Below, in pieces: positions 2,331-27,168 of a DNA stretch of 35,516 bases (positions are counted from its first letter, which is position 1; every line of letters begins with the position of its first letter). The notes under the pieces were generated by a model. That model did no database searches and was not told the DNA's origin. It saw only the letters and a program-made list of their open reading frames with translations. Made by a program: the position numbers and the translations under genes. This DNA is from a virus, in the IMG/VR virus record IMGVR_UViG_3300037504_000227, positions 75,201 through 110,716 of that record. The stretch is one strand, 5' to 3'.

Positions 2331-2334
2331 CAAA

Positions 2335-2418
2335 TGTGGATATGTAAGAATTCTCACTCGCTCGTAGAATGACGAGCGTTCGGCTTGACCGATAGAAGCC
2401 CCTTGGGGAACATTCACA
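2335..2418 (+). ncRNA. folded RNA, cloverleaf-like but not a tRNA (84 bases)
   Basis: An interrupted outer stem (TGTG...ATGT pairing with ACAT...CACA at 2410-2418) encloses three hairpins in a row: CGCTCGT/ACGAGCG (7 bp perfect, 6-base loop), TCGG-CTTGA-CCGA, and CCCC-TT-GGGG. No anticodon loop or T loop is present. It lies between tRNA-Met and the VRR nuclease gene. It may be a diverged tRNA-derived RNA, a small regulatory RNA or a leader element. No known family is recognised. Confidence 0.35.
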
Positions 2419-2446
2419 AGGCGCAGGGCATGCAACAAGGATGACT

Positions 2447-2806: not shown

Positions 2807-2824
2807 CCGGATGGGGAGGTGCAC

Positions 2825-3427
2825 ATGAAACAGCCCATGCAAGTTCTTACATCGTCCGAGACGGAGGAGTGGTATACTCCTCCTAAGTACACAGACATGG
2901 CGCGAATTGCTCTGGGACACATCTACATGGACCCAGCCAGCAATGAAGTTGCGAACAGATGGATCGGCGCCCACGTCATCTTCACCAGGGAGGACGACGG
3001 TCTTGCGCAAGACTGGCAGGACACGGTTTTCCTTAATCCACCATACGGCAAGACACGGGGGTTATCAAACCAGGACATCTGGGCGACGAAGTTCGTGAGG
3101 GAGTATGCGTCCGCTAGGATACGAGCCGGCGTCATGCTTACCAAGACAGTTCCGGGGTACGCCTGGTGGGAGCGTCTGTTCAGAACGTTCCCCGTGTGCA
3201 TGGTGGAGAAGCGAATCTCGTTTCTCCAATTGGACGAAGCCGGCGAGGTTGTGGGCGAGGGTGTAGCCAAAGCCGGGTCGTCGTTTTGGTACGCAGGAGA
3301 CAACATCCGAGTGTTTGAGGGCGTGTTCCATGAAGTTGGTCGCGTGATTTACAAACCCAGCGACTGGCTTGCGCCGTCGATGTGGTGGGGGAGCAAGCGG
3401 GTGCGTAAGTTGCTGGACGAATATTGA
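2825..3427 (+). CDS. phage Dam-type DNA N6-adenine methyltransferase
   Basis: ATG 2825 follows GGGGAGG with a 5-base gap. The 200-residue protein matches the phage Dam family (PF05869). It has EWYTPPKYTDMAR (about 15-27), DPASNEVAN (36-44), the FTREDDGLAQDW block, and the catalytic NPPY motif at 71-74, followed by a methyl-acceptor-side region. It would transfer a methyl group from S-adenosylmethionine to adenine N6, probably to shield phage DNA from host restriction. With a C5-MTase (10075-11250) and a Mom-like protein (3-314), this is one of three DNA-modification genes in the window. Target sequence unknown. Confidence 0.88.
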   Translation: MKQPMQVLTSSETEEWYTPPKYTDMARIALGHIYMDPASNEVANRWIGAHVIFTREDDGLAQDWQDTVFLNPPYGKTRGLSNQDIWATKFVREYASARIRAGVMLTKTVPGYAWWERLFRTFPVCMVEKRISFLQLDEAGEVVGEGVAKAGSSFWYAGDNIRVFEGVFHEVGRVIYKPSDWLAPSMWWGSKRVRKLLDEY

Positions 3428-3435
3428 GAGTTAAT

Positions 3436-3521
3436 GGGGTCGTGTGGTAATTGGTAGCCGGCCTGATTGCTAATCAGGTGGTCACGAGAGTGGCTTGCGA
3501 GTTCGAGTCTCGCCGGCCCCG
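3436..3521 (+). tRNA. tRNA-Ser(GCT)
   Basis: Acceptor GGGGTCG/CGGCCCC (one T-G), and anticodon arm CCTGA/TCAGG with loop TTGCTAA, giving GCT. It has a long variable arm, T arm GCGAG/CTCGC and discriminator G, all typical of serine. Confidence 0.92.
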
Positions 3522-3526
3522 CCTGC

Positions 3527-3598
3527 GGCACTGTGGCCGAATGGATATGCATGCGCCTGCAAAGCGCACTTATGGGGATTCGAGTTCCCCCGGTGTCT
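3527..3598 (+). tRNA. tRNA-Cys(GCA)
   Basis: Acceptor GGCACTG/CGGTGTC with two wobbles, and anticodon arm TGCGC/GCGCA with loop CTGCAAA, giving GCA. T arm GGGGA/TCCCC has loop TTCGAGT. Confidence 0.9.
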
Positions 3599-3641
3599 CT
3601 GGATAGAAACGTATCAACATTTCAAAAAGTATATACAACTT

Positions 3642-3713
3642 GCTCCCTTGGTGTAATTGGCAGCACAATTCCCTTGTAAGGAATCAGTGTGGGATCGTTG
3701 CCCACAGGGAGCT
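3642..3713 (+). tRNA. tRNA-Thr(TGT)
   Basis: Acceptor GCTCCCT/AGGGAGC is perfect. Anticodon arm ATTCC/GGAAT has loop CTTGTAA, giving TGT. The T stem GTGGG/CCCAC is perfect, but the loop is ATCGTTG (no T54/A58), as in the Glu tRNA of this array. Confidence 0.88.
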
Positions 3714-3719
3714 TAACAT

Positions 3720-3793
3720 GGACCCGTAGCTCAGTTGGTTAGAGCGCCTCTCTTACACGGAGGAGGTCGCTGGATCGAAGCCAGCCGGGTTCA
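3720..3793 (+). tRNA. tRNA-Val(TAC)
   Basis: Acceptor GGACCCG/CGGGTTC, D stem GCTC/GAGC, and anticodon arm CCTCT/GGAGG with loop CTTACAC, giving TAC. T arm GCTGG/CCAGC has loop ATCGAAG. Confidence 0.9.
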
Positions 3794-3798
3794 CTAAT

Positions 3799-3870
3799 GC
3801 ACCAGTAGGCTAGTTGGCAAACCGAAACATTGGTATTGTTTAGTCCCCGGTTCGATTCCGGGCTGGTGCT
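3799..3870 (+). tRNA. tRNA-Thr(GGT)
   Basis: Acceptor GCACCAG/CTGGTGC is perfect. Anticodon arm AAACA/TGTTT has loop TTGGTAT, giving GGT. T arm CCCGG/CCGGG has loop TTCGATT. The D stem is short. Confidence 0.9.
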
Positions 3871-3887
3871 CTGGAGAGAAAAGACAA

Positions 3888-3960
3888 GCCTTGGTAGCTC
3901 AGTTGGCAGAGCGCCCGTTTCGTAAGCGGGAGGCCGAGAGTTCAAATCTCTCCCTTGGCT
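3888..3960 (+). tRNA. tRNA-Thr(CGT), mismatched acceptor stem
   Basis: D stem GCTC/GAGC, anticodon arm CCCGT/GCGGG with loop TTCGTAA (CGT) and T arm GAGAG/CTCTC are all sound. The acceptor strands GCCTTGG and CCTTGGC leave two adjacent T-T mismatches (4-69 and 5-68). Confidence 0.8.
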
Positions 3961-3965
3961 CTCAA

Positions 3966-4040
3966 GCCCCTGTATCGGCTTTGACTTCTAATCAAAGTAC
4001 CGTAAGTGGATGGATGTGGGTTCGAGTCCCACCAGGGGTG
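3966..4040 (+). tRNA. tRNA-Arg(TCT), apparently lacking a D arm
   Basis: Acceptor GCCCCTG/CAGGGGT and T arm GTGGG/CCCAC (loop TTCGAGT) are normal. Stem TTTGA/TCAAA encloses CTTCTAA, giving TCT. Only about 5 bases (TCGGC) lie between TA8-9 and the anticodon stem, so there is no D arm. The variable region is instead 19 bases long and contains a D-loop-like AAGTGGATGGAT. CGG/CCG may extend the anticodon stem. It could be a functional oddity or a rearranged pseudo-tRNA. Confidence 0.6.
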
Positions 4041-11296: not shown

Positions 11297-11440
11297 TTAG
11301 GAAGCTACCACCAGTGCCACAGTCAAAACCAGCCAAATCACGAATATCCCAAGTGCGTGATTTATCCAGTGTATGGACCTCGGAGGATCCTCCCGTTGCT
11401 TCTCTTCCTCACCTTGTTGCACCTGCACGCACTCAGACAT
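11297..11440 (-). CDS. nested small membrane protein (47 aa)
   Basis: A short ORF read in a different frame from the portal C-terminus. ATG 11440 has AGGAG 7 bases upstream and the stop is at 11297, so the first 79 bases are shared with the portal gene and the rest extends beyond it. The product is polar for about 22 residues (MSECVQVQQGEEEKQRE), followed by one hydrophobic segment HALGIFVIWLVLTVALVVAS. That is a C-tail-anchored, holin- or spanin-sized protein. The strong ribosome binding site and the coding region past the portal stop argue it is real. Role unknown. Confidence 0.6.
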   Translation of the reverse strand: MSECVQVQQGEEEKQREDPPRSIHWINHALGIFVIWLVLTVALVVAS

Positions 11441-14400
11441 ATACGCTCTCCTATTGGCTTCAACACACCGACTGGCACCCAGCCCATCTCTGCATCGCCC
11501 TCACACTCATCACACACTCTACCATCGCCTTGTGTGACAAGCTTTTCCTGAACAACGTCGTTCGGCAACGTTGCTGGGATTGCATCGTTCTGATACAGCT
11601 TGTAAATCTCACCTGAGTACATCGACACGCGATATTTCAGGGAGCGAAGCGACGCACCCACAACATCCTTGAGAACATCTAGTGGGGCTTGTGTATTCTC
11701 ATTCATAGCAACGCCAATCTTGCGTCGAATATCTGGCACAAGCTTTTCTTCGATGTACATATAGGCTCGGTTCAGATTGCGCGAGATCTTATCTAATGCC
11801 TGACGATCTGGCTCTCTACCTGTGGTCAAGGTCCAAACAAGGAATGCCGCCTCTCTCAATCGCATCCTCATTCTCTCAGAGAGCATCATCAGCATTTCTT
11901 CTACAAGTTCAGCATTGTCCTCAAGCAACCCCTGCTTTAGCTGTTCTAGCAAGAATTGAATAGATTGGTCATAATCTGCCATCAACGCTTGACCAAGTTT
12001 ATCCACCAATTCAATCGCTTGATCGTATGTTAGAGGGAACTCATACGGAACGTCTGCAAAGTTAACTTCCTCTGAGTCCTCAGATGGATTAGCCCAATCA
12101 TAACATGACCAGAAGCCTGCTGCAAATGGATCTTTCTTCGTGCTACAACTGTGGCGCGACAGGAAGTTCTTGCGAGCCTCTTTGTTGGTCCTGCGCATTG
12201 GCATATCTGGATCGGCGTAGTGAACCAGCCTTTCCTTATCCTTGTACTTGACTGTGCGCATCCACGCTTTGTCGTCTCGGCTTGAGGATCTGCGACGTGT
12301 GGCACGGCACGTCACACCGTTGTAGGTATACCTGTAGAATTTAGCGTCGCCAAACTCCTCTTCTTTGGGAGGCTCAATCGGCTCTTTGTCAGATTCGACA
12401 GGCTGATTTGCTTTCAGCAGAAGCCCAGGCTCTTGAATCTCAGGAAGCCCAATGCGACGGCGTGTTGCCTGCTCTGTCTCTAGGTCGTATGTGATCCCAC
12501 CAGCGTCCAACAAGCGCGCCACGATGTTTGCATACCCCTCAACGTCCAGCTTCGCAATCGGAACGAAGTGAATCTCAGGCATTGCTCCCTCGTGCCCGTT
12601 CAGCTTCATTAACCTTGGTATGCCGTGACGATTGATAACCGAAGCAACTTGCTGTAAGAATCCGTTAACTGCCTTAATGAACAAGGCTGACTTGTCCGCG
12701 TGCATCGCCCAAGATCCCTGATCCCCACCACCAAGCATCAGGAAGTCAGCCATAATTGTGCGCGCCATGTCGCGCTGGTGACGTGTGATCGTTTCTCCTG
12801 GACTGATTGGCGGTGAACCCTTTGGCATTTCGTAGCGGAAGCTCCAACCAAACGGCTCAGTTAGCCCCATGTCGTCGCCCAGCTTGATGTTACGCACAAT
12901 CTTCTTTGCGCGAGACAGATCAGATGTGGAATCACTGTCTGTAGTCGCCCCATCAGGCATACCCATCACAGGCGTTCCGGACATGCGCTCAATAACGATT
13001 GCCTCTTCAATCTTTAGGTTTTTAGCAAAGAACCAAGAGGTGTACGCGCCTTCGAAAATCGAGTTGTGCGTCGGTATCATTCCCTCTCCAGCAAGGAACA
13101 AATGACTTGGCCCATCTGTTTGTATACACACCGTTCTGCGTGGAGGAACCCTTTCTACTTTTGTAATATAATGATTTGTTCTTGCCCGCACGTCTTTGCA
13201 CCGCTCTATCTTTCTTGACAGTTTGAATGGAACAAAGTTGTGCGGAGTAAACTTGACTTTATATGTTATTTGACATCCGTCTCGCTCTTTTGTTGTTATT
13301 CTGGCATCGCCGCCGAGAGAGCGTATTAGTTCTGCGGCACCATATGCAAGATTCCTGTTTGTATTTGTGAATTCGCATCTGCCCCATCTGTCAACTGTTC
13401 CATCGCTGTCCATTAAGCCCTGTAGCAATTCGAGTCTTTGTTTGCGAGACGACATCAAGTATCGTCTTGGAATATGCTTGTTGTTTAACACGCCGATTGC
13501 ATTTAATTTCCAGGACACCTTGTATATTCTTATCATCCTGCCCTTGCCGCCCCGCAGGCCGTTTCTTGACACCCTTGTATCATACCCGTATGATTCAAAT
13601 ATAGCAACTGTCTCTGGAACATCTTGAACGTGAGATGTAACTATCCCACCATTGGAATGCCCGTCGCCAAGCCATTGGCCAAGCAGATATGGCTCAACTA
13701 CAAGTTCCATGTGAGGATAGTCAAGCGACTCTGCCCACGGTATGGCGTGGTTGTTTATGTAATATTGCTTGCCATTCTTTTTGCCGTGTGGCTTCTTGAC
13801 CGTCTTGGCGATTTGCTTTGTTGTTCTAACCCTGCCCCTTTTGTGATATGCTCTTTCGCGAGCATTCTCGGTATACCACTTGTGGCTTTCGTCAGCAATT
13901 ATTTCTACGCCAGTGTCAAAGGTTACTTTGTAGCAAGGTCTGTTTTCCCAATCCTTGCGACCAATAACATATCTTATTCTGCCCTTCTCATCAAACACTT
14001 TATTTCCCGGACGCAGATCGTCTATTTTTCTCCATCCATCTGGCGTAACGATGGGCGTGTTTGGGTCAAGAGCCCTTCCTTCAGGAGAATTCTTGCCGGC
14101 ACCAGTTGTGGTGAAGTGCAACATCTTCTCGATTGGGATATACGGCGGTCCCATTTTACGAGAGGAGTTGCTGATCTGAACCATTCCCTGAAGCCCACCA
14201 TTTTCGTCCAGATCCCAATGGAGTAGTGTGGTTGGGTGACGGGGTGCCCACTTGCGCCAGTAGATTCGTCCGTCGTCCCGGCGCTCATAGACCAACTCAA
14301 CATCGAAGAACCCATAGGCAAGGAAGTACACAATGTCACTCATTGTCTCAGAGAACGATTTAGTCATTGTCGTCAGATTCTCTTTGACAAACTGCGCCTG

Positions 14401-14649
14401 CTCTACATCAGCGTCATCATCTGAGGCAGGCAGAATATCCCACTCAGCCTCTCGCATGAACATGGTCGAAACCATCATCATCGCAGACCCGGTAGGGTCA
14501 AGCCTTGAGATCTCGTCCCAGATCTTAATGCGCTTCTCGTTGGTCAGTAGATCTGTAACCCACTGCTCTTTGACATAGCCTGAATACTCGTCAAGACCAG
14601 TGACGCCGATCTCACTCATCAGACGTGATTCTATCTTGTTATCTGCCAT
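11362..14649 (-). CDS. portal protein with intein, fused to SSSRDDK and MuF-like domains
   Basis: ATG 14649 follows GGGGGTTGT. Numbering is from this Met. Residues 1-192 and 530-755 form a phage portal (DUF935/gp29-like style; SPEGR|SIFEGAY spliced together). An intein occupies 193-529 and is described separately. After splicing the C-terminal half holds a domain about 770-865 with TCRATRRRSSSRDDK...HYADPDMPMRR...RHSCSTKKDPFAAGFWSCYDW. Next is a helical region, then a MuF-like tail (about 995-1080) with VCDECEGD and CLSACRCN Cys motifs. The product is the portal at the capsid vertex plus a MuF head-morphogenesis module. The precursor is 1095 residues and the spliced protein would be about 758. 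The 3' end contains the nested small membrane gene. Confidence 0.85.
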   Translation of the reverse strand: MADNKIESRLMSEIGVTGLDEYSGYVKEQWVTDLLTNEKRIKIWDEISRLDPTGSAMMMVSTMFMREAEWDILPASDDDADVEQAQFVKENLTTMTKSFSETMSDIVYFLAYGFFDVELVYERRDDGRIYWRKWAPRHPTTLLHWDLDENGGLQGMVQISNSSRKMGPPYIPIEKMLHFTTTGAGKNSPEGRALDPNTPIVTPDGWRKIDDLRPGNKVFDEKGRIRYVIGRKDWENRPCYKVTFDTGVEIIADESHKWYTENARERAYHKRGRVRTTKQIAKTVKKPHGKKNGKQYYINNHAIPWAESLDYPHMELVVEPYLLGQWLGDGHSNGGIVTSHVQDVPETVAIFESYGYDTRVSRNGLRGGKGRMIRIYKVSWKLNAIGVLNNKHIPRRYLMSSRKQRLELLQGLMDSDGTVDRWGRCEFTNTNRNLAYGAAELIRSLGGDARITTKERDGCQITYKVKFTPHNFVPFKLSRKIERCKDVRARTNHYITKVERVPPRRTVCIQTDGPSHLFLAGEGMIPTHNSIFEGAYTSWFFAKNLKIEEAIVIERMSGTPVMGMPDGATTDSDSTSDLSRAKKIVRNIKLGDDMGLTEPFGWSFRYEMPKGSPPISPGETITRHQRDMARTIMADFLMLGGGDQGSWAMHADKSALFIKAVNGFLQQVASVINRHGIPRLMKLNGHEGAMPEIHFVPIAKLDVEGYANIVARLLDAGGITYDLETEQATRRRIGLPEIQEPGLLLKANQPVESDKEPIEPPKEEEFGDAKFYRYTYNGVTCRATRRRSSSRDDKAWMRTVKYKDKERLVHYADPDMPMRRTNKEARKNFLSRHSCSTKKDPFAAGFWSCYDWANPSEDSEEVNFADVPYEFPLTYDQAIELVDKLGQALMADYDQSIQFLLEQLKQGLLEDNAELVEEMLMMLSERMRMRLREAAFLVWTLTTGREPDRQALDKISRNLNRAYMYIEEKLVPDIRRKIGVAMNENTQAPLDVLKDVVGASLRSLKYRVSMYSGEIYKLYQNDAIPATLPNDVVQEKLVTQGDGRVCDECEGDAEMGWVPVGVLKPIGERICLSACRCNKVRKRSNGRILRGPYTG
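13063..14073 (-). mobile_element. intein with LAGLIDADG endonuclease inserted in the portal gene
   Basis: The insert starts at Ala (ALDPNTPIVTPDGW, block A) and ends at ...GMIPTHN followed by Ser. It is thus an Ala1-type intein (337 aa), with Asn as the last residue and Ser as the +1 extein residue. Block B (IIADESHKWYT) and the two LAGLIDADG helices LLGQWLGDG and LLQGLMDSDG are present, so it may still home. The exteins SPEGR and SIFEGAY rejoin into a standard portal motif. Splicing needs no gene-level feature beyond this frame. Confidence 0.88.
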
Positions 14650-14673
14650 ACAACCCCCAGATAGGCGCAAATA

Positions 14674-17235: not shown

Positions 17236-17264
17236 ATTGTACCCAACCATTCAACCACTTTCAA
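17236..17264 (-). promoter_or_regulatory. leftward promoter for the packaging operon
   Basis: On the minus strand the -35 TTGAAA (17264-17259) and -10 TACAAT (17241-17236) are separated by exactly 17 bp. The terS ATG (17228) comes 7 bases after the -10 hexamer, so the mRNA should be leaderless or nearly so. No ribosome binding site precedes the ATG. Confidence 0.72.
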
Positions 17265-17292
17265 GGTTTAAGCTAGATAGCCATATTCCTAT

Positions 17293-17321
17293 TTGACTTA
17301 TTTGGCTTTTTGTGATACAAT
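17293..17321 (+). promoter_or_regulatory. rightward promoter for the recombination/lysin operon
   Basis: The -35 TTGACT (17293-17298) and -10 TACAAT (17316-17321) are 17 bp apart, and ATG 17329 lies 7 bases after the hexamer. The geometry is identical to the divergent leftward promoter, and again there is no ribosome binding site. A leaderless transcript is inferred. Confidence 0.75.
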
Positions 17322-17328
17322 GCATCAT

Positions 17329-17727
17329 ATGGATAAGAAATATGAGCGGATTGTTTTGGAGAAGTTCAAGCTACGAGCACGACAGATTTCCACTTACGAG
17401 TTCATCAAGAGTGCAGGTGTAGAAGTCTGGGCTGACTTTGTAGCTTGCAGTTTGATTTCGCAGATGGACGCATTTGTGTCTGGTCAACAAGTCAAGTATA
17501 TCGAGATTGACTATCCGTTGACTTGGTGGCAGGCGCTCAAGAAAGAGTTGTACGAAAAGCGCTGGTTCCCTGAGCGGATCAAGAGGCGATGGCCCGTCAA
17601 GAGTAGGACACGCACGATTGACATCAAGCTGCTGTACCCAGACCTCGTAATTCCAGACCAGAGGATAATGTTTCCAGTGATTTTTCATCGCGGACCAGAA
17701 AAAGGATATAGAGAGCATGGGCCTTAG
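17329..17727 (+). CDS. hypothetical phage protein, first gene of the rightward operon (132 aa)
   Basis: ATG 17329 fits the leaderless promoter just upstream. The protein is basic and rich in aromatic residues (IEIDYPLTWWQALKKELYEKRWFPERIKRRW). It is a compact alpha/beta protein with no motif I can tie to an enzyme. Similar small proteins recur in tailed phages. It starts a run of overlapping rightward genes including an HNH protein and a RecA-like protein, so a DNA-related role is plausible, but this is context only. Confidence 0.65.
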   Translation: MDKKYERIVLEKFKLRARQISTYEFIKSAGVEVWADFVACSLISQMDAFVSGQQVKYIEIDYPLTWWQALKKELYEKRWFPERIKRRWPVKSRTRTIDIKLLYPDLVIPDQRIMFPVIFHRGPEKGYREHGP

Positions 17728-18022
17728 ACAAGACGCAATAGAAGAACTAGATGAAGCCACACGCTACATTGTCATCGAACGCGATCAGGGAAAGTGTGTA
17801 GACTGCAGCAAGCCATACCACGACATTCACGAAATTGTCTCAAGGTCACACTTCGGCACCCGCCACCTAGACAAATGCTTCAAGGTCAAGAATCGGTGCT
17901 GTGTATGTCGCAGATGCCACGACTATTACCAGGGCGATCACATCAAGGAGTTGCTTGAGCTGATGCAAGAGAAGTATAGATACGATTACTCAGAGCGTCC
18001 CTGGAGTCTTCACCTTGGCTAA
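17717..18022 (+). CDS. HNH endonuclease-like protein (101 aa)
   Basis: The protein reads ERDQGKCVDCSKPYHDIHEIVSRSHFG...CCVCRRCHDYYQG. This has the zinc pair CVDC, the HNH-type dyad in DIHEIVSRS, and the second CVCRRCH cluster, in a 101-residue form. HNH proteins beside terminase genes often help packaging nicking, as in HK97 gp74. Here the gene lies 500 bases from the divergent terS gene, so such a role is inference. It overlaps the preceding gene by 11 bases and the following gene by 8. Confidence 0.8.
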   Translation: MGLRQDAIEELDEATRYIVIERDQGKCVDCSKPYHDIHEIVSRSHFGTRHLDKCFKVKNRCCVCRRCHDYYQGDHIKELLELMQEKYRYDYSERPWSLHLG

Positions 18023-18551
18023 AGAACGAGGCGAAGCCGGTCCTGAAGCTGGAATCTCTATGCGGTCGTGGGGATGGTTTGCCTACGCCGTCAGGGACGC
18101 CACGCGATGCCCATACTGCGGCAAGCTTATCTTCCCTGGGGCAACTGGCGGAACGTGGGATTACAAGAAGGTCGGTGTCCCTATTTGGCCCAGTAGAAAA
18201 GTCGCGTTTATAGATGTCGAGGTCAAGGCCGGGCACACAAGCATCCCATTCTCATCTATAGACGAGAGGAAGCGTGAGTGGGCAGAGCAAGAGAGAGATC
18301 GACAGAAGTGGCTTTGGTTCTGTATCGGGAAGAACGCTGTGAATGCGAGGGAACATCCCAGACGAACGTGGCTTTTCCCCTACAGGCTGTTCCTGAGACT
18401 AGAACAAAAGTTCGATAGAAAGTCTATTCCATATGATTGTGAGGAATTGAGGGAGTATGAACTTGAGTGGGACGGAGATAGAACGTGGGTGATTCCCAAT
18501 GGACACCCGCTTCAAAAATGGATTGGAGGCACTAATGGACAGCTCAATTAA
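18015..18551 (+). CDS. putative PD-(D/E)XK nuclease with Zn-ribbon (178 aa)
   Basis: TTG 18015 is the apparent start (GGAG 8 bases upstream) and overlaps the HNH stop. Residues about 32-38 (CPYCGKLI) form a zinc-ribbon knuckle. VAFIDVEVKAGHTSIPFSS near residue 65-80 has an E-x-K core after a D, as in PD-(D/E)XK enzymes, with basic residues after it. The C-terminal part is aromatic and acidic. It is probably a structure-specific or RecB-like nuclease that works beside the RecA-like gene two genes on. Full catalytic layout cannot be proved by eye. Confidence 0.5.
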   Translation: MAKERGEAGPEAGISMRSWGWFAYAVRDATRCPYCGKLIFPGATGGTWDYKKVGVPIWPSRKVAFIDVEVKAGHTSIPFSSIDERKREWAEQERDRQKWLWFCIGKNAVNAREHPRRTWLFPYRLFLRLEQKFDRKSIPYDCEELREYELEWDGDRTWVIPNGHPLQKWIGGTNGQLN

Positions 18552-18723
18552 CTTTAAGATCGAGGCGCACAAGAAAGAGCAACTGGAAGAGCTTGCTGGT
18601 GGCGGACTCTCAAATCTGATGCGCAGAATCATTGATGAGTATCTGGCAGGCTTCGAGAATAAAGAAAACGTCGTTCTGACTAATTCTGGCAGGCGGGTTA
18701 AAGTTACAGTGGAGGAGATGTGA
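18535..18723 (+). CDS. ribbon-helix-helix DNA-binding regulator (62 aa)
   Basis: ATG 18535 has GGAGG 5 bases upstream. The 62-residue protein reads MDSSINFKIEAHKKEQLEE...GLSNLMRRIIDEYL, a beta-strand followed by two helices, the RHH pattern of Arc/CopG repressors. A C-terminal tail is strand-like (NVVLTNSGRRVKVTV). Notably, a TTAACTTTAA motif lies at 18548-18557, within the gene's first codons, and a near copy (18698-18707) lies at its 3' end, so the regulator may bind these sites. Its stop overlaps the RecA-like start (GTGA). Confidence 0.65.
   Translation: MDSSINFKIEAHKKEQLEELAGGGLSNLMRRIIDEYLAGFENKENVVLTNSGRRVKVTVEEM
18548..18557 (+). repeat. TTAACTTTAA motif copy within RHH gene start
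   Basis: Exact copy 13 bases after the RHH start codon. A 9-of-10 match lies at 18698-18707 near the end of the same gene. Confidence 0.7.
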
Positions 18724-19790
18724 AACGAAAAGACAGTTACCACGGCAGCCTGGATGATGCATTGGCATATATTGAGAAGATGTATGGTCAATATGCTGTG
18801 TCGAAGCCAGGCGAGGCACAGTTTCAGAAGGGGCAGGTTGTTTCAACAGGGTCTTTGGCGCTTGACATTGCGATTGGTGGTGGCAAGCGAGTTTCTGGGA
18901 TTGAGTTGGGCGCGATCACGATGTACTGGGGTCCGCCTGGGAGCGGGAAGTCAACTGCAATCCTACACGCTATTGCGACTGTTCAGGAGTTGGGGCGCAA
19001 GGCTGTTCTGTGCGAGACAGAACCGAAGTTGGACAGGGAATATGCAGAAGCTATTGGCGTGGATGTAGACGCCTTGTACATTATGAATATGGTGCCCAAC
19101 CCAGAGAAGTTACCCTTGGCTGCAGAGGACATTCTGACAGAGATTGAGATCCTTGCTTCTACAGGAGAGTTTGGGTTAATTGCACTGGACTCTGTAACAG
19201 GGCTTTCGCCGCGTAGAGAATTGGAGTCTGAACTAGAAGAGGAAAACCCTGGACTTCAGGCTCGCGTGGTGACGAAAGCTTGCCGAAGATTGGCTCCTAT
19301 CCTAAAATCAAATGAGTGCGGACTGTTGGTTGCAGACCAGCAACGCGCAAACTTCAAAGCCCGTGGATGGGGTGCATCTCCAACAAAGGCAGCGATGGCA
19401 AACGCCATCAAACACTATGCCAAGTTGATCGTTCGTATTAGCCGTGGCGGTGTCGAGAAAGATAGCGGAACGCCTATTGGAATCAAGTCTTATGGGTACT
19501 GCATGAAGAATCAGGGTGGCATCCCGTATCACACTGCAGAGTTTTACATTACACACGGGCTTGGGATTGATCTTGCACGGGAACTAATCGACTTCGGACA
19601 AGAGTGTGGCGCTGTCGAGAAGCGCGGGAGTTGGTACTATTTGATGAGTATTGACCCTGATACTGGTGAGGTGTCAGAAGAGCAAATAGCACAAGGACAA
19701 GAAAACTCTGCCAAGGTGCTAAGAGAAAACAGAGAAATGATGGACGATCTAAAACAGAAGGTTGTTGAAAGGATATTGGACAGTGATTGA
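18720..19790 (+). CDS. RecA-like recombinase
   Basis: The GTG start at 18720 overlaps the RHH stop and has GGAGGAGAT upstream. The 356-residue protein has Walker A GPPGSGKST (71-79), the E of the CETEPKLD region (near 99-106), the Walker B-like LIALDSV, a loop L2 region GASPTKAAMANAIKHYAKL, and a C-terminal GAVEKRGSWYYL, typical of RecA. It would form filaments on single-stranded DNA for recombination, repair and phage replication restart. A coiled C-terminal tail (EEQIAQGQENSAKVLREN) ends it. Confidence 0.93.
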   Translation: MKRKDSYHGSLDDALAYIEKMYGQYAVSKPGEAQFQKGQVVSTGSLALDIAIGGGKRVSGIELGAITMYWGPPGSGKSTAILHAIATVQELGRKAVLCETEPKLDREYAEAIGVDVDALYIMNMVPNPEKLPLAAEDILTEIEILASTGEFGLIALDSVTGLSPRRELESELEEENPGLQARVVTKACRRLAPILKSNECGLLVADQQRANFKARGWGASPTKAAMANAIKHYAKLIVRISRGGVEKDSGTPIGIKSYGYCMKNQGGIPYHTAEFYITHGLGIDLARELIDFGQECGAVEKRGSWYYLMSIDPDTGEVSEEQIAQGQENSAKVLRENREMMDDLKQKVVERILDSD

Positions 19791-22700
19791 AAACGGAGGA
19801 TTTGAACAAGAGTGGGTAGATAATCACACAGTTACAATCTACCCTGTGGACGGTGCGCCATACGAGGCAGAGCGGGGGAACATCTTCGTGTTGCCCGGAT
19901 GGGAGGTATGGTTTAAGCATAAGGCAGGAACGTGGGACCAACCAGAGGTCACAGACATTTGGGCGTCTGCATACGATTATCGTGTAAGGTCTGGGCAAAA
20001 GGCGCAAAAGTTTTTCACCACTGGCAGGCGACACGACGGTGGATACAGACAGCAAATTAACGTTAATGCTGGGCAAAAGATTAGAGTGACAGCTTGGGGG
20101 CACGCCTGGAGTAACCACCACGACCCAGACTTATTCTATTGCTACGAGTGCTGGGAGCCAGTTCGCTTCAACCCAGACCAAGAGTTTACAGCTTGCCCCA
20201 ATTGCGACACGCCTCTGAGCAGGCAGGTTCTACACGACGCCAACCGATATGTCTTTCCACATCCCAACGACGGCAAGTGGAGCGAGGGGACAGGGATTGG
20301 GTATAACATCGTGGCCCTAAATCCAAGCGAGATTCCAGAAATGAGTGGCGATCCACAGAACGACGCCATTGGGAACATTATGCTTTCTGTTGGCATCGAC
20401 CCTACAGGCAACACAAATCCGTTTGCGTCAACAGTTGTCTGGAACTCCAAGGCTATCTACAATGGATACAAAGAGTCTATCACAGTTGAAGCTGTTGCAC
20501 AGAGCGAAACGATTACAATATTCCTGAGAAGCACAACGCTGTATGCGTTTAAGCACAATGATGTGTATTGGGACGATGTTAGCGCAGAGGTTGTGGATGA
20601 GTCTCCACTACCACCAACAGAATGGGATTATGACGTGGTAGAAACAGGGAGCAAACTGTCGGTGCACACCATCAATACAGATGGGGTTCCTGGATTTGCT
20701 CAGACCTTAAAGGACAATGGTATAGGGTTTGCCGTCATCAAGGGCGTGGACAATCTTGGGTGGCTAGTGGATGCAAAGCAAAACTATCCAGACTCAACCA
20801 TTGTCGCCAGACTGGTACACGACTACGAAAGGTGCCCAGACGTTCACTTCCCTGAGACTGACCTAGACAATCTGGCAGACAATATTTTCAGTGCGATCAC
20901 AGACGCATGCGACGCGACCAATGGACTAAAAGAGGCTGTGGATTACTGGGAGCCAATCAATGAGCCAGATCCACCTGGAACAGATGGCTATCGACGCCTG
21001 TCCGAACTGCAGTTCAAGCTTATGGATCGGGCAGAGGATTACGGTGTCAAGATTGCCATCTTCACCCTCAACGCAGGCACGCCAGAGTGGGATGAAGCAC
21101 AAGCTATGGTGGAAACAGGCGTGTTCGGCAGGGCAAAGCAGGGAGGACATATCCTAGCCCTTCACGAAGGCGTCTTTAGCCCATACGATCCTGTGGACAC
21201 GTGGTGGGGCGATGACATCCCTGGCGTGCCAGATGGGCTTGGCGAAGAGATCGGCGCGGGAGCACTGTGCTTCCGCTATCGGTATCTGTACCACCTGCTA
21301 CAAGAAAGAAACGAGGTCATTCCCCTTGTTGTCTCTGAGTGGTGCGGTTATGACCAAGGGCCACTGACGCCAGACGATGTTTTGCAACGGGTTGAGTGGT
21401 ACGATACGAAAATGCGAGAGGATTACTGGGCCTGGGGATTCTGCCCATTCACACTAGGACCAACGTCTGGATGGACAAGCCACGACTACGAGTTTGCCTA
21501 TCAGACCATCGTAGACTATATGATCTCCATTAAGGATGAACAAAATGGACTTCCAACAGAAGATCCAGCGCCGCCAGAGGAGTACTGGGGATTTCCAAGA
21601 GAGCAGTATTCACGAACATATGTTCTAATGCCACCTGGGCTTGGAGTTGACTGGTACATTCAAGCACAGATCGGAGGATTCGAGAAAAGGCTAACAGTTG
21701 GGTCCAGCGCCGACGATGCAGGCATTGGCTATCTAGATGACAAGACTGTTTTGGCAATCAACCCAGACCTATGGACAGATGACTTGCAGGCTTTCTTCAC
21801 GAAACACTACCCACACACGACGTATCGTGTTGTAAACGCTAGTACGCCAGAAGAGCTGGCATTAAAGTTAATGCCGTCTTCCGATGGCGACTTGACCGTT
21901 TCGCAAAACAACCCACTATGGGCAAACGACGATCTGGGCGAAGAGCCTGGAGGGGAAACCATTGGAGAGGCTGGGTGTTTGCTGTCGGTCGCGTGTATGA
22001 TTCTAAGAAAGGTGTACAATCGCAACATCATCCCGCCAATTCTGAACAAGTCACTTGAGCAAAGCGGGAATGCCTTCTTCGAGGACGACCTGCTTTCCTG
22101 GAACGACGCAATCAGCAAGTACCCCGCGTTTGATAATTCGGCCAAGATCAATAGCAGTTTCGCGATCTCTGATCTGGCTCAGATGCAGGACGATGGATGG
22201 GAGATCGGACTTAGAGTGAGTGGCGGATCTCACTTCGTCTACCTAGAATATGCAACAGATCAATTGCACGTCATCGACCCTTGGGATGGAGAACGCAAGA
22301 CCTGGGACATCAACGATGTGTCTGGAATCAGAGCAGCACACGTAGCAGGGGGAGAGCCAAAGCCACCAAGCGACTTAAATGTAATAGGCGTACATGGCTC
22401 GCCCATCTTGTCACCGCCTCCACGAGAAGATTGGGGTTTCTGGATCTCAGAGATGAAGGTCATGGGCGTCAAGCTCTACAAGGTGCTGGATAGCGGAGGT
22501 GCTGATAACATCGACTGGGTAAATAGACTAATGGAAAATGGGATCGAGCCAATCGTCAGAGTGTTCTGCGCACAACAATTCCCATCCAGGTTGCCACGCG
22601 GCCTGATGGACAGGGCAAAGCAACTAATTGATGCCGGCGTTAAGAAACTAGAGATCGGGAACGAACCAAACCTTCCTGGAGAATGGCAAAGCAAATTCCG

Positions 22701-23328
22701 AGATAGAGTAGATTGGCACAACTCAGATCTTGTTGCGTTGGTTGCTGAGAACTGGTGGATGGACGCCAAGGAAATAACAGACCACGGCGGGCAAATAGCA
22801 TTTATGGCTATGGCACCCACAGACCGAGGCGGAACAAACTCAAAATACTCAAGCGTGAAGTGGTACAAAGGCATTGCACAACACATAGCAAACAACCATC
22901 GCAACGAAGCACAAACACTTATCGGAAGTGGGAAGCTGTGGGTAGCGGTTCATATTTCCCCATTCAATAGAACACTGGACTTTAGCCCGTTCAGAGATGG
23001 ATACATTGACGATATGTGCCTCAGAGCATATGAAGCATACAACAAAATCTATCATGAAACGCTTGGAATCCAACCAATCGTTATTAGCACCGAAGGAGGG
23101 GCATACAGCCCCGAACACCTAGACGATCTTGGTTGGGATGCATATACAGAGGAGTATTGGGCGCAGCTGGCAGTCAGCATGTACCAATATCTAGCAGAAC
23201 ACAACGGGCCTCCTGTATGCTCTTGGGTTCTCACTGATCAGGGCGTCGATGATCCAAGGTGGAGAGATAATGGATGGTATCGTGGCAAAAGTCCGAGGCT
23301 GATTGTTCAAACGATGAAAGAGGCTTGA
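19783..23328 (+). CDS. giant multidomain glycosidase/peptidase-like protein (putative lysin or cell-wall/polysaccharide enzyme)
   Basis: GTG 19783 (AAAGGA 9 bases upstream) gives 1181 residues and overlaps the recombinase stop. In order: residues 1-90, a CBM-like domain starting ENGGFE. At 120-141 there is a Cys4 zinc ribbon CYEC...CPNC. About 280-590 is a glycosidase-type TIM barrel with acid/base E394 (EPINEP) and candidate nucleophile E519 (VVSEW). About 720-840 is a papain/C39-type peptidase-like segment with C732 (GEAGCLLS), H817 (GGSHFVYLEY) and D832 (VIDPWDGE). About 860-1180 is a second GH-type barrel with E961 (EIGNEPN) and E1104 (ISTEGG). The combination suggests an enzyme that degrades host surface or cell wall polymers. 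No signal peptide is visible. Confidence 0.75.
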   Translation: MIENGGFEQEWVDNHTVTIYPVDGAPYEAERGNIFVLPGWEVWFKHKAGTWDQPEVTDIWASAYDYRVRSGQKAQKFFTTGRRHDGGYRQQINVNAGQKIRVTAWGHAWSNHHDPDLFYCYECWEPVRFNPDQEFTACPNCDTPLSRQVLHDANRYVFPHPNDGKWSEGTGIGYNIVALNPSEIPEMSGDPQNDAIGNIMLSVGIDPTGNTNPFASTVVWNSKAIYNGYKESITVEAVAQSETITIFLRSTTLYAFKHNDVYWDDVSAEVVDESPLPPTEWDYDVVETGSKLSVHTINTDGVPGFAQTLKDNGIGFAVIKGVDNLGWLVDAKQNYPDSTIVARLVHDYERCPDVHFPETDLDNLADNIFSAITDACDATNGLKEAVDYWEPINEPDPPGTDGYRRLSELQFKLMDRAEDYGVKIAIFTLNAGTPEWDEAQAMVETGVFGRAKQGGHILALHEGVFSPYDPVDTWWGDDIPGVPDGLGEEIGAGALCFRYRYLYHLLQERNEVIPLVVSEWCGYDQGPLTPDDVLQRVEWYDTKMREDYWAWGFCPFTLGPTSGWTSHDYEFAYQTIVDYMISIKDEQNGLPTEDPAPPEEYWGFPREQYSRTYVLMPPGLGVDWYIQAQIGGFEKRLTVGSSADDAGIGYLDDKTVLAINPDLWTDDLQAFFTKHYPHTTYRVVNASTPEELALKLMPSSDGDLTVSQNNPLWANDDLGEEPGGETIGEAGCLLSVACMILRKVYNRNIIPPILNKSLEQSGNAFFEDDLLSWNDAISKYPAFDNSAKINSSFAISDLAQMQDDGWEIGLRVSGGSHFVYLEYATDQLHVIDPWDGERKTWDINDVSGIRAAHVAGGEPKPPSDLNVIGVHGSPILSPPPREDWGFWISEMKVMGVKLYKVLDSGGADNIDWVNRLMENGIEPIVRVFCAQQFPSRLPRGLMDRAKQLIDAGVKKLEIGNEPNLPGEWQSKFRDRVDWHNSDLVALVAENWWMDAKEITDHGGQIAFMAMAPTDRGGTNSKYSSVKWYKGIAQHIANNHRNEAQTLIGSGKLWVAVHISPFNRTLDFSPFRDGYIDDMCLRAYEAYNKIYHETLGIQPIVISTEGGAYSPEHLDDLGWDAYTEEYWAQLAVSMYQYLAEHNGPPVCSWVLTDQGVDDPRWRDNGWYRGKSPRLIVQTMKEA
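21862..21871 (-). repeat. TTAACTTTAA motif copy in the giant protein gene
   Basis: Here the flanks extend the palindrome: GGCATTAA-AG-TTAATGCC. Confidence 0.7.
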
Positions 23329-23513
23329 TGGAAGAATCAATTGAGCAACTGGTCAAGGCTGGCTATCTCAAGAAACAAGGATATAGATGCAGGCTGACCA
23401 ACAAAGGTTTGAAAGTGGCAATGGAGATCCTTGAGGAAGAGGGCGAAGAGATTCCTGAAGGCGAAGATATGTACGAGTATCTGATTGGAGTCATAATGGG
23501 AGACAAGACATGA
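23328..23513 (+). CDS. small winged-helix-like protein (61 aa)
   Basis: ATG 23328 overlaps the stop of the giant gene by one base (TGATG), and AAAGAGG lies 4 bases upstream. The 61-residue product reads MEESIEQLVKAGYLKKQGYRCRLTNKGLKVAMEILEE, a winged-helix-like pattern of the sort seen in small transcription factors (helix, helix, wing). The tail is acidic (EEGEEIPEGEDMYEYL). No closer family. It is likely a regulator or a DNA-associated helper of the following membrane gene cluster, but that is inference. Confidence 0.6.
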   Translation: MEESIEQLVKAGYLKKQGYRCRLTNKGLKVAMEILEEEGEEIPEGEDMYEYLIGVIMGDKT

Positions 23514-23692
23514 GACTAATTCTGAGAGATGTTGTGTGGACACTCGTGGCGCTTGGATTTTGGGGATTCACATTCCTCAGTATCTACAATGCACGAAGCA
23601 ATCCGTGGGAAGTTTTGATCGCAGTCGTGATGTTTGCGCTCGCGCTGTTTACAACCGTTCAAATTGGACAAGGAGGCAACGATGCTAACTGA
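23510..23692 (+). CDS. small membrane protein (60 aa)
   Basis: The ATG overlaps the preceding TGA (ATGA) and GGGAGA lies 6 bases upstream. The 60-residue product has two hydrophobic segments (VVWTLVALGFWGFTFLSIY and VLIAVVMFALALFTTVQIG) joined by a short polar loop NARSNPWE. Nothing more specific can be said. It is part of a run of small membrane proteins in the operon that includes the FtsK-like ATPase, so it may belong to a membrane complex. Confidence 0.6.
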   Translation: MRLILRDVVWTLVALGFWGFTFLSIYNARSNPWEVLIAVVMFALALFTTVQIGQGGNDAN

Positions 23693-24155
23693 TCTATGGA
23701 AGGAACGGCTTGAGCTGTGCCGTCAAAGCAGCAAGGACAAGTTCTACTACGATGACTTGGCAGAGTTGTGGAATATGCCATACGAATCTGTCTCGCCATC
23801 CCTGAACACGCTAGACGCCAAGTGGTACGACAAGGACATGGACGGGCGCAAAGCTGTTGTGACGTTCTCTTACGAAGGGCTTGCCCCGGAGGACGAGTCT
23901 GTATACTCCCTGGTCACAAAGAAAACCTACAAGAATATCGTCAATAGAATGAAGAACACTGGCGCGATGCCAGAGGAGTTCCGCGTAGAGTTTGAGCCTC
24001 TGATTGAGGCGCAGCGCAGGGGATGGGATGAAGAGAAACAGCGTGGCGGGTTGATTGCTCACGTTTACGAGAAAGGTCAAAAATCCCCCTGCCTTAAGTT
24101 CACTATCCGCATTGATAACGAATACGTGGTAGGAGCACAAATCGAGGTGCTGTAG
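23682..24155 (+). CDS. hypothetical protein (157 aa)
   Basis: ATG 23682 has AAGGAGG 5 bases upstream, and the larger in-frame extension is not needed. The 157-residue product begins MLTDLWKERLELCRQSSKD and has a mixed helix/strand pattern with a possible helix-turn-helix early on (YDDLAELWNMPYESVSPSLNTL). The rest is strand-rich (AVVTFSYEGLAPEDESVYSLV, LIAHVYEKGQKSPCLKFTI). No enzyme motif is visible. It may be a DNA-binding or regulatory protein linked to the following membrane gene cluster. Stop overlaps the next start. Confidence 0.6.
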   Translation: MLTDLWKERLELCRQSSKDKFYYDDLAELWNMPYESVSPSLNTLDAKWYDKDMDGRKAVVTFSYEGLAPEDESVYSLVTKKTYKNIVNRMKNTGAMPEEFRVEFEPLIEAQRRGWDEEKQRGGLIAHVYEKGQKSPCLKFTIRIDNEYVVGAQIEVL

Positions 24156-24832
24156 TGCCTGGACACAAGACCCACACAAAGATCGCATTCATAAGCGCAC
24201 CGGTTGTGGGATGGGGAGCATGGGCATTCCAGAACGGAATGTCAAGAGTCCTGGAAGAAATAGGGCAACGCCCTGAATCCTACAGGATGGACAATGCCCC
24301 TGCGATCATTGGGCGCTCTTTGCTGATCGCTGCTGGGTCTGTGTTCGGTGGAACGATGGGTAGCCCTGACCTGGACATTCCTTCTGCCCCGTACAACTCT
24401 TGGGGTCCGCTAAGGATACTGTGGCTTCCCTGGCAGGTGATGGTCAGACACAGATCGCCTGCCTCACACTGGCCTATGCTGGCTACGATGCTTAAGGCAA
24501 TCTACATCAACTTGGTGTTAATCCTGCTCGCCTTGCTAGTATCGCTGTTTTGGGATGTATCAGTGTGGACGTTCTTTCACTTGATGGGATGGGAGCATAC
24601 ACATGGCCTGTTAGTGTTGTGGATGGCAAAGCTGGTGTGGACTGTCGTGAAGTCGCCGCTATACTGGTTGTTTTTGACAGGGGACATCATCGGAATGGCA
24701 TTGCACGACGCGACAGACTTTCTTGACGGTCAACGTCGTAGACACCACCAAAAAGAGATGCCGCCTCTAGAAGATCCAGACGACGAACGCGAGAAGTCAT
24801 ACCGGGATAGACACAGGAGATACTATGACTAA
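24155..24832 (+). CDS. DUF2227-like metal-binding membrane protein
   Basis: GTG 24155 overlaps the preceding stop. The 225-residue protein matches DUF2227 members: PGHKTHTKIAF (H4, H7) at the N-terminus, a SPDLDIPS motif (70-77) and RHRSPASHWPML (98-109). Together they provide a set of His/Asp residues for metal. Three hydrophobic stretches follow (about 112-135, 138-150 and 160-180) and a charged tail (RHHQKEMPPLEDPDDEREKSYRDRHRRYYD). The family is found in bacteria and phages and is thought to be a membrane-linked metal-dependent hydrolase-like protein. Reaction unknown. Confidence 0.7.
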   Translation: MPGHKTHTKIAFISAPVVGWGAWAFQNGMSRVLEEIGQRPESYRMDNAPAIIGRSLLIAAGSVFGGTMGSPDLDIPSAPYNSWGPLRILWLPWQVMVRHRSPASHWPMLATMLKAIYINLVLILLALLVSLFWDVSVWTFFHLMGWEHTHGLLVLWMAKLVWTVVKSPLYWLFLTGDIIGMALHDATDFLDGQRRRHHQKEMPPLEDPDDEREKSYRDRHRRYYD

Positions 24833-26237
24833 CAGGCACGACGCCCTGGAAAGAAGAATAAACATCATCGCTGGTGTGATCGAGGCTGTGTGTTTTAGTG
24901 AAGAGATTCCACTAATGATCCCAGAAGATGGTGCTGCCGTTCTGGGAGATCAGTGTCGCTTCTATGCCAAGAAGGCACGCGGGAAAGACCTGGATGCACT
25001 CAAAGCCCGTCTCAAGAAAACACAGTCAAACACATACCTGAAAGGGCACATTGCCAGTGACAGCAACCTAAAAAGACTGCGCAAGGACGTGTCAACCATC
25101 CTTGAGTGTGAGCTTGGGTGCCAGGTAGGAATCGGAGTCGGTAAGCAGAGCATTACCTTTGACTTCCGATTGTCAGACATTATGCACGGGGATTACTTCA
25201 TCCCTCTGAGCATTGCTGATCTACATATGGCGCCAAGGAAAAACAAGATCCCCATCGGTAAAACCTTGGAGGGAGACGTGATTGTGTGGTGTCCAGATGA
25301 TGGATACCATCACCACGTCCTGATTGCAGGGATGACAAGAAGCGGCAAGTCTACTCTGTGGAATACAATGATGTGGGGACTGGCGAACTCATACAGTCGT
25401 AGCGAGATGCAAATGATGCTGATGTCAGGGAAACCGGAGGATGTTGTGCTGTGGTCTGGGCTACCCCACCTAATCGCGCCTGTGACTACAACGCCTAAAG
25501 AGGCTCTGGCGATGATCTCCTGGGCTGAGGAAGAACGCAGGCGCAGAGCGGAGATCCCACACAAGGATAAAAACTTCTCGCGTCTCTTGATCTTTGTGGG
25601 CGAGATCCCATACTTTGCTGACAACTGTCCTCCTGAGTTCACGACAAATCTAGAGCGCCTTATGAAGCTGGGCGCATCAGAGAAGATTCATGTCGTGGTA
25701 ACAACCCAGTACCCGCGCTCTGACAGAGTAGGAAGCATCGACATCAAGACACAGTTCCCTCTAAGGATGTGCGGGATGGTCAACGATCCACAATCTGCCT
25801 ATGTGGCCCTCGGCGTCGGGGGCACCGGGGCAGAGCTTCTTCCCGGACGCGGCTCGTTTGTCACATCCAATGACGTTCGGTTCCAGGCTGCTTACTTCTG
25901 CGACGCCAAAGAACCAGCGCCAGCTATAAATTTAGTGAAACAGCTTCAGGCCCAGATGGGAACACCACAATATCAAGACGACATTCAAGAATACAACCAC
26001 GACGTTCAGGGGCAAACAATGACAGACGATGCCTGGGACGCAATGCAGAAGCTCATCTCAGTTGGGCGAGAAAAAACGTCGAAGAACGATCTCCAGGCAT
26101 TGATGGGATGGGGGTTCCCAAGGGCATCGCGGTGCTTCGAGACTCTGATTAAGAAGGGCGTAATCTCAGAGGACAGAGACGAGACAAGGAAGGCAGAAGT
26201 GTATCTAGATAAAGCGAAGGAGGAAGTCAATGCTTGA
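24825..26237 (+). CDS. FtsK/HerA-type DNA-translocating ATPase with altered Walker B
   Basis: ATG 24825 has AGGAG 5 bases upstream. The 470-residue protein has Walker A AGMTRSGKST (168-177), and the expected Walker B position reads LLIFVGEIPYF (254-263), with Gly at 259 where Asp normally sits and Glu 260 kept. Other FtsK features are VVTTQYPRSD (291-300) and RMCGMVND. A C-terminal winged-helix-like region (LQALMGWGFPRASRCFETLIKKGVI) resembles the gamma domain. It probably moves DNA or plugs a membrane pore with the small membrane proteins around it. No transmembrane segment is visible. Confidence 0.75.
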   Translation: MTNRHDALERRINIIAGVIEAVCFSEEIPLMIPEDGAAVLGDQCRFYAKKARGKDLDALKARLKKTQSNTYLKGHIASDSNLKRLRKDVSTILECELGCQVGIGVGKQSITFDFRLSDIMHGDYFIPLSIADLHMAPRKNKIPIGKTLEGDVIVWCPDDGYHHHVLIAGMTRSGKSTLWNTMMWGLANSYSRSEMQMMLMSGKPEDVVLWSGLPHLIAPVTTTPKEALAMISWAEEERRRRAEIPHKDKNFSRLLIFVGEIPYFADNCPPEFTTNLERLMKLGASEKIHVVVTTQYPRSDRVGSIDIKTQFPLRMCGMVNDPQSAYVALGVGGTGAELLPGRGSFVTSNDVRFQAAYFCDAKEPAPAINLVKQLQAQMGTPQYQDDIQEYNHDVQGQTMTDDAWDAMQKLISVGREKTSKNDLQALMGWGFPRASRCFETLIKKGVISEDRDETRKAEVYLDKAKEEVNA

Positions 26238-26421
26238 AATCAACGGGATCTACATCATCGTCGTAGCAATCTTGTGGGCGCTGTCTCTAATTGGAGCGTT
26301 TGTTCTAGGGTTCCGCATTGGATTGTGGGGCAAGGTGCGCCAAAAAAGCGATGACATCATAGAGCAAGCGTCCAATGGTAATGGCAAGAAGTCTCGCAGG
26401 GTGAAGTTGAAGACGGCATGA
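26230..26421 (+). CDS. small single-TM membrane protein (63 aa)
   Basis: The ATG has AGGAGG upstream. The 63-residue product has one hydrophobic stretch (IYIIVVAILWALSLIGAFVLGFRIG), then a basic C-terminal tail (KKSRRVKLKT). The positive-inside rule predicts the basic tail lies in the cytoplasm. It overlaps both neighbours by a few bases. With the PH-domain protein and FtsK-like ATPase it makes a likely membrane set. Confidence 0.6.
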   Translation: MLEINGIYIIVVAILWALSLIGAFVLGFRIGLWGKVRQKSDDIIEQASNGNGKKSRRVKLKTA

Positions 26422-26960
26422 TCGAGCCGCTTGTGATCCATCGTTCGGCTTGGGCAGCCGCCAAAGCCCTCAAGTACCCCACGCTTGCATTTATCGTCGT
26501 TTTGATATATACTGCATTCATGGCGCTCACAAGCGCTGTGGAGAAAGGGCTTTTGCTAGTTTGTGCTGGGCCTTGGTTCATCATATATGCTGTGGTGTTT
26601 TTCCTGGCAATTCTAGACTGGAGGGACGAGAAATATGAAGTAACTGAAGATGGGAAGTTCAAGGTGCACTATCGGAAATTGCTCCGAGTGCGCACCGAGG
26701 CTGAGGGAAACGTGAAGAACATCGAAAACATTAGAATCGTTCATCGTGGAGCAATGCAAAATGTGTTTCCCTATGGTGATATGTACGTGCAGGTGGGATG
26801 GGAAAAGAAAAAGTTTGTCCTTCGTGATGTCCCTCGCCCATCTAAAGCTAGAGAAGAGCTGCTCAAGCGGGTAGACCAAGCCAAGTCTGTCACGGAAGAG
26901 CAGGAACAAAGCACAGAGGTTTTGGATGAACTGTTACAAATGTTAGAGGAGACAGAATAG
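26418..26960 (+). CDS. membrane protein with PH-like domain (180 aa)
   Basis: ATG 26418 overlaps the preceding TGA. Two hydrophobic stretches (about 22-39 and 44-65) are followed by DWRDEKYEVTEDGKFKVHYRKLLRVRTEAEGNVKNIENIRIVHRGAMQNVFPYGDMYVQVGWE, a beta-strand pattern that matches bacterial PH (bPH2/DUF304) domains, and then an acidic helical tail. Such proteins are anchored in the membrane with the PH-like part in the cytoplasm. A role in a membrane complex with the FtsK-like ATPase is inference. Confidence 0.7.
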   Translation: MIEPLVIHRSAWAAAKALKYPTLAFIVVLIYTAFMALTSAVEKGLLLVCAGPWFIIYAVVFFLAILDWRDEKYEVTEDGKFKVHYRKLLRVRTEAEGNVKNIENIRIVHRGAMQNVFPYGDMYVQVGWEKKKFVLRDVPRPSKAREELLKRVDQAKSVTEEQEQSTEVLDELLQMLEETE

Positions 26961-27145
26961 TGAAAATCACAATTGAGGATCAGTATGAATTCCACCTGAC
27001 GAAAGACGAAATGGTAGAGCTGGCAGACAGATACGGACTCCTGCGCGACCATCGACTTAGGGCCTTGTTGCTTGACGACCCAGAGGGCGACACTTGGCCT
27101 GGAAGGCCGGTGACCCTGACATTCACTGGACAGTATGTGGAATAG
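26960..27145 (+). CDS. small hypothetical protein, last gene of the rightward operon (61 aa)
   Basis: GTG 26960 overlaps the TAG stop of the PH-domain gene. The 61-residue product is acidic and strand-rich (MKITIEDQYEFHLTKDEMVELADRYG..., then VTLTFTGQYVE). No family recognised. It is immediately followed by a strong hairpin terminator. It may form a small helper or chaperone-like protein, but this is not supported by any motif. Confidence 0.55.
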   Translation: MKITIEDQYEFHLTKDEMVELADRYGLLRDHRLRALLLDDPEGDTWPGRPVTLTFTGQYVE

Positions 27146-27148
27146 AAA

Positions 27149-27168
27149 AAGCCCCCGAAAGGGGGCTT
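27149..27168. terminator. bidirectional rho-independent terminator
   Basis: AAGCCCCC-GAAA-GGGGGCTT is an 8-bp perfect stem with a tetraloop, flanked by AAAAA on the left and CTTCGTTTT on the right. It gives a usable U-rich tail in both directions. It sits between the convergent ends of the rightward operon (27145) and the clamp gene (27190). Confidence 0.88.

Follow-up and report, generated by a model that had tools for sequence, protein, structure and literature searches.

The window analysed here is a stretch of 35,516 nucleotides and forms the end of a virus record of 110.7 kb, which may itself be a fragment. It contains an open reading frame for 1181 aa starting with GTG and preceded by AAAGGA, the product of which is referred to below as the putative lysin (Table 1). 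A sequence-only reading had placed this gene right after RecA and far from recognised tail genes. The two reading frames overlap, and the gene does not lie among tail genes in the window phage. It is part of a probable transcription unit with genes for an HNH protein, a resolvase-like protein, RecA, the putative lysin, small ORFs, a wHTH-like protein, a DUF2227 protein, FtsK and orf180. A divergent promoter-like pair (17236-17321) and a strong hairpin (27149-27168) bracket this unit; overall, the numbers of promoters and terminators were not above those in shuffled sequence. Relative L016 keeps the HNH, resolvase-like, RecA, lysin, wHTH-like, DUF2227, FtsK and orf180 genes at 31-48% identity, and relative L033 keeps HNH-resolvase-RecA-lysin at 37-46% identity. 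Both share the overlap between the RecA ORF and the start of the lysin gene. Two ORFs 3' of the putative lysin, a 60-aa protein without family match carries two predicted membrane segments; L033 encodes one of 62 aa immediately after the lysin.

Table 1. Features of the putative lysin gene and its surroundings; positions are those of the window.
Feature	Residues	Position	Strand	Basis or remark
RecA		18720..19790	+	8-nt overlap of ORF end with start of lysin gene; order kept in L016 and L033
Putative lysin gene, multi-module	1-1181	19783..23328	+	GTG start at 19783, stop ends 23328; ORF analysis and relatives
CBM-like beta-sandwich	1-275	19783..20607	+	AlphaFold, Foldseek, alignment
Zinc-ribbon-like insertion in CBM, CxxC..CxxC	~118-145	20134..20217	+	Motif, weak Pfam match
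Barrel 1, GHA, clan GH-A type (beta/alpha)8	282-598	20626..21576	+	AlphaFold, fold comparison, alignment
Barrel 1 codon	E394	20962-20964	+	
Barrel 1 codon	E519	21337-21339	+	
REQY module, unnamed domain	603-695	21589..21867	+	Conserved T...G.SADDAG...YP, alignment
C39-type cysteine peptidase	696-860	21868..22362	+	Profile-profile comparison, alignment, secondary structure
C39 codon	C732	21976-21978	+	
C39 codon	H817	22231-22233	+	
C39 codon	D832	22276-22278	+	
Barrel 2, GHB, clan GH-A type, PslG/GH39-like	866-1181	22378..23325	+	Model, fold comparison, alignment
Barrel 2 codon	E961	22663-22665	+	
Barrel 2 codon	E1104	23092-23094	+	
60-aa protein, two predicted membrane segments, candidate holin	1-60	23510..23692	+	Positional analogue in L033
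Probable transcription unit		17293..27168	+	Promoter-like site 17293-17321, terminator-like hairpin 27149-27168

Some other features of this phage were also observed. A cluster of 20 tRNA genes for many amino acids occupies positions 408-4039. On the minus strand, a 1102-aa ORF (11362-14670) combines portal-like (phrog_113), terminase-like and LAGLIDADG/Hint signals, which suggests a head-gene ORF interrupted by at least one intein. The same phage also has, close to tail-like genes, a group of glycosyltransferase genes and genes resembling those of nucleotide-sugar epimerases (L218:7381-19982, record bases 47381-59982); in relative L001 an array related to it stands immediately before the lysin gene.

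The whole protein had no match above cut-off in Pfam, where only a zinc ribbon appeared below threshold, and searches of PHROGs, NCBIfam and PDB sequences gave weak zinc-ribbon matches or nothing. No match was found by tblastn in 50,697 phage records either, and a signal peptide is absent. In the rest of the 110.7-kb record, neither Amidase_2 nor M23 domains were found. AlphaFold models were obtained for aa 1-605 (pLDDT 87.0) and aa 600-1181 (pLDDT 88.3), the pTM of ~0.6 making the placement of the modules relative to each other unreliable. Relatives were collected from IMG/VR, first with the complete sequence as query and next with the CBM and linker segments; about 100 loci and 89 distinct proteins resulted.

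Both glycosidase-like barrels of the sequence-only reading were recovered as clan GH-A folds in the predicted structures. Barrel 1 matched GH39, GH2 and GH5 enzymes with Z 16-17.7, and barrel 2 matched PslG and other GH39 enzymes with Z 20.5-21.0. Barrel 2 superposed on PslG with Z 21.0 and an rmsd of 3.1 over 278 residues, with the two catalytic glutamates in common. It shares, however, only 15% identity with PslG/GH39 endoglycosidases and, unlike these, sits in a peptidase-bearing phage protein. No Pfam match to GH39 was obtained for it, and neighbouring GH families scored within 1-2 Z units of the best one. By models and alignments, both barrels show the hallmarks of the clan, namely a (beta/alpha)8 fold, an acid/base glutamate in an N-E pair and a second glutamate as nucleophile. 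In the alignments E394 and E519 were kept in all GHA barrels with residues at those positions (41/41), and E961 and E1104 in all GHB barrels (5/5). The other barrel types kept glutamate pairs of their own (13/13 for GHC, 28/28 for GHF). This conservation is the pattern predicted by selection for catalysis. GH-A barrels are rare in endolysins.

The Cys-His-Asp segment, previously suspected to be a C39-like peptidase, aligned by hhalign to ten Chloroflexota C39_2 domains exceeding the Pfam cut-off, with a probability of 97.7% and E 2.4e-12. In this alignment C732, H817 and D832 were in register with the C, H and D residues that never vary in the reference set. These residues were kept in 13/13, 13/13 and 12/13 of the C39 relatives, respectively. 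Direct matches to Peptidase_C39_2 (PF13529, clan CA) were obtained for 3 of the 13 family members, the best at 2.3e-5; PF13529 found no match in the window's own genome at E 1, a gap that the sequences of relatives overcame. Unlike typical members of PF13529, the module stays below the Pfam cut-off and is fused inside a larger protein, not secreted alone. In the secondary structure of the model, C732 lies at the start of a helix and H817 and D832 at adjacent strands, the papain-like order of a C39-type peptidase. The protein thus contains an intact active site of peptidoglycan-hydrolase type, and peptidoglycan would be a plausible target of the C39 module itself; C39 peptidases have other roles too. 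The TIM barrels were seen in the AlphaFold models and the C39-type cysteine peptidase by profile-profile comparison, and the seven residues singled out beforehand were numbered exactly and are all conserved in relatives.

For the CBM-like start, AlphaFold predicted the expected beta-sandwich, and its Foldseek matches included CBM61, CBM4-2, CBM16 and a porphyran-binding CBM (TMt 0.62-0.75). The model thus has the fold of CBM61/CBM4/CBM16 modules, and glycan binding is putative; the identity to these is, however, ~10%, and they lack the zinc-ribbon-like insertion. A match of the CBM profile to snake-venom CRISPs (E 2e-4) was attributed to chance, given the beta-sandwich obtained with AlphaFold and Foldseek. 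As to the zinc ribbon, its cysteines are present (C120-x2-C123-x14-C138-x2-C141), but the Pfam score was weak (18.3 bits against a cut-off of 30.8) and pLDDT in this region low. No other family member has it, which makes it a private insertion.

Domain models derived from the relatives revealed free shuffling of CBM, REQY, barrels of types GHA, GHB, GHC, GHD and GHF, and a lytic module. The C39 slot is taken in relatives by Peptidase_M23 (4.9e-16) or Amidase_2 (1.1e-12) domains of Pfam, and one large branch of ~510-aa relatives has a Phage_lysozyme GH24 domain (Pfam 1.7e-25; PHROG endolysin 1.5e-31). Where the lytic module is exchanged, REQY, the barrels and often the CBM are retained. The branch in question (L084, L078-L097, L100-L110), whose contigs we take to be marine from their sample numbers, combines GH24 with REQY and a GHF barrel where scanned, and many of its members have a hemolysin-family-like small membrane protein downstream. 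It connects the family to GH24 phage lysozyme endolysins, although the putative lysin itself has no GH24. In L005 the modules are ordered CBM-REQY-C39-GHA-GHC. Some relatives consist only of barrel and REQY or of CBM and REQY, without a wall-lytic enzyme, and two CBM-only relatives on viral contigs (L004, L006) have secretion or lipoprotein-type N-termini. We agree that this is no standard phage architecture; the combination of modules is nevertheless no one-off and represents one arrangement of a widespread shuffled family.

Among precedents, the LysA set of mycobacteriophages comes nearest. These lysins are extensively modular with several activities per chain, relatives exchange C39-like peptidase (N5), M23 and amidase domains, and muramidase, transglycosylase or amidase centres are combined with C-terminal wall-binding domains (PMC3314691). 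The exchange principle is the same, whereas the putative lysin differs by its two GH-A barrels, its CBM, its REQY module, its length and another host group. For this family the principle is known and the architecture is new.

Between barrel 1 and C39 we found a separate conserved module of ~90 aa, REQY, which the sequence-only reading had missed. Its consensus is PR.QY.RTYVLLPP...T.G.SADDAGIGDLD.R.V.A.NP..W...L..F...YPGV. REQY profiles had no match in Pfam, NCBIfam or PHROGs and nothing significant in PDB sequences. In IMG/VR the REQY family comprises ~77 distinct phage proteins, all within the 89 mentioned above, and in the 110.7-kb record the putative lysin has the sole copy. When 84,980 species of bacteria and archaea were scanned (GTDB), 97 loci were confirmed, and all 80 that were listed belong to Chloroflexota (Anaerolineae, Thermoflexia/Thermoflexales, Ardenticatenaceae and unplaced Chloroflexi). 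Apart from this phylum, the matches listed came only from uncultivated phage contigs. The distribution is patchy, with REQY in 2 of 301 genomes from the phylum to which G001 belongs.

In host proteins with complete N-termini, REQY ends at most 30 aa from the C-terminus in 74 of 77 cases, and in phage proteins it is C-terminal in 11 of 72. None of the 77 host proteins has a signal peptide, two N-termini flagged as hydrophobic being barrel sequence. REQY partners in hosts are subtilase, M23 peptidases, barrels and CBMs. The host loci (L120-L199, for example L177:4339-6666, L181:4330-6279 and L146:5038-6306) have housekeeping-like surroundings; the idea that they are prophages was dropped since the neighbours at six loci on long contigs, identified by eye, looked like housekeeping genes. 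In the REQY tree, host and phage copies are largely separate, and the ~18 switches between them (shuffled mean 55) indicate repeated exchange. One clear REQY behind a secretion signal was seen, in a CBM-REQY protein with a lipoprotein-like N-terminus on a viral contig (L046:7632-8948), and suggests that the module works outside the membrane. Because the host partners are of extracytoplasmic type and yet have no signal peptides, we tentatively propose that REQY might be a targeting module common to Chloroflexota and phages, marking proteins for export via an undescribed route or fixing them in the envelope. Nothing relevant was found in the literature on injection systems in Anaerolineae.

Taken together, we read the protein as the enzyme with which the phage lyses its host, a very large modular endolysin suited to Chloroflexota envelopes of the Anaerolineae type, with a probability of about 0.68. 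This reading draws on a slot that takes C39, M23 or amidase, on GH24 in sister architectures, on the absence of a signal peptide and on modules of wall-targeting type. Also in its favour are the nearly invariant catalytic residues, the lack of Amidase_2, M23 and a second REQY elsewhere in the record, the Chloroflexota link and the secretion or lipoprotein-type N-termini of L004 and L006. A Chloroflexota host of the window phage is suggested by the distribution of the modules. Late in infection the protein would be synthesised in the cytoplasm, gaining access to the wall once a holin, possibly the 60-aa protein, has opened the membrane. The Cys732-His817-Asp832 peptidase would then cut peptide stems or cross-links, and the GH-A barrels (E394/E519, E961/E1104) would cut glycan chains by a two-glutamate retaining mechanism, with CBM and REQY holding the enzyme on the host envelope. 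The target of the barrels may be the wall backbone or, more likely, a wall-attached or surface polysaccharide. The presence of barrels and a CBM suggests a glycan beyond or besides the peptidoglycan backbone that the enzyme must bind and cut.

The surroundings of the relatives recall lysis cassettes in several cases. A small membrane protein lies at most two genes from the lysin in 27 of 72 relatives, compared to 12% of other genes (P 2e-8, a value that is not phylogenetically independent, one large branch being closely related). Downstream of the GH24 form lies the gene of a coiled-coil membrane protein with a match to a PHROG 'hemolysin' family (5e-6), and an Rz-spanin-like ORF (3e-4) precedes another relative. 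Counting against an endolysin are the location in a recA/FtsK unit, the lack of a recognised holin in adjacent position, a candidate holin that fits no family, the other roles of C39 peptidases, the rarity of GH-A barrels in endolysins and the relatives without wall-lytic enzyme. REQY is furthermore not specific to lysis, since it also occurs in host chromosomes among housekeeping-like genes.

Of the three roles considered in the sequence-only reading, lysin, tail-associated depolymerase or secreted enzyme, the first is best supported because relatives swap C39 for peptidoglycan hydrolases (M23, Amidase_2, GH24), and classical secretion is improbable given the absence of a signal peptide. A virion-associated enzyme would sit on the tail and at entry cut surface polysaccharide and then, by C39, peptidoglycan. 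The likeness of the barrels to polysaccharide endoglycosidases such as PslG and of the CBM to polysaccharide-binding modules would suit such a depolymerase, as would the position of L007 and L084 directly after tail-like genes, that of L001 after tail-like and glycosyltransferase genes, and the occurrence of M23 domains in phage tape-measure proteins. We nevertheless consider this role unlikely: a recA unit, not a structural one, holds the gene here and in two relatives, neither a beta-helix nor an oligomerisation region of tail type was seen, and some relatives join these very modules to a GH24 lysozyme whose neighbours are holin-like. The recA-linked gene order and the lysis-cassette-like neighbours disfavour it weakly.

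Somewhat more doubtful still is a host-derived protein that is exported via REQY and remodels the surface of the infected cell, for instance by stripping surface glycans or excluding other phages, and does not serve final lysis. Chloroflexota indeed carry the same modules in surroundings that do not look like prophages, with REQY mostly C-terminal and without signal peptides, and some phage versions have no wall-lytic enzyme; yet most long phage versions possess a dedicated peptidoglycan hydrolase, and we know of no export route for REQY proteins. That the domains came together by chance or are degenerate and inactive, as the failure to pass any Pfam cut-off might hint, is very improbable, being contradicted by catalytic residues kept in up to 41 divergent copies, by confident models and by a family of tens of members.

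In the literature we found no described lysin of phages infecting Anaerolineae or related Chloroflexota. If the endolysin reading is right, the family would provide dozens of candidate Chloroflexota-phage lysins with freely exchanged lytic modules, and two glycosidase-type barrels beside a peptidase would imply a glycan layer that needs cutting for lysis. Should REQY act as a targeting module, phages would have adopted it as a lysin anchor. REQY may serve as a sequence marker tying uncultivated phages to Chloroflexota and as a handle on the targeting of envelope enzymes.
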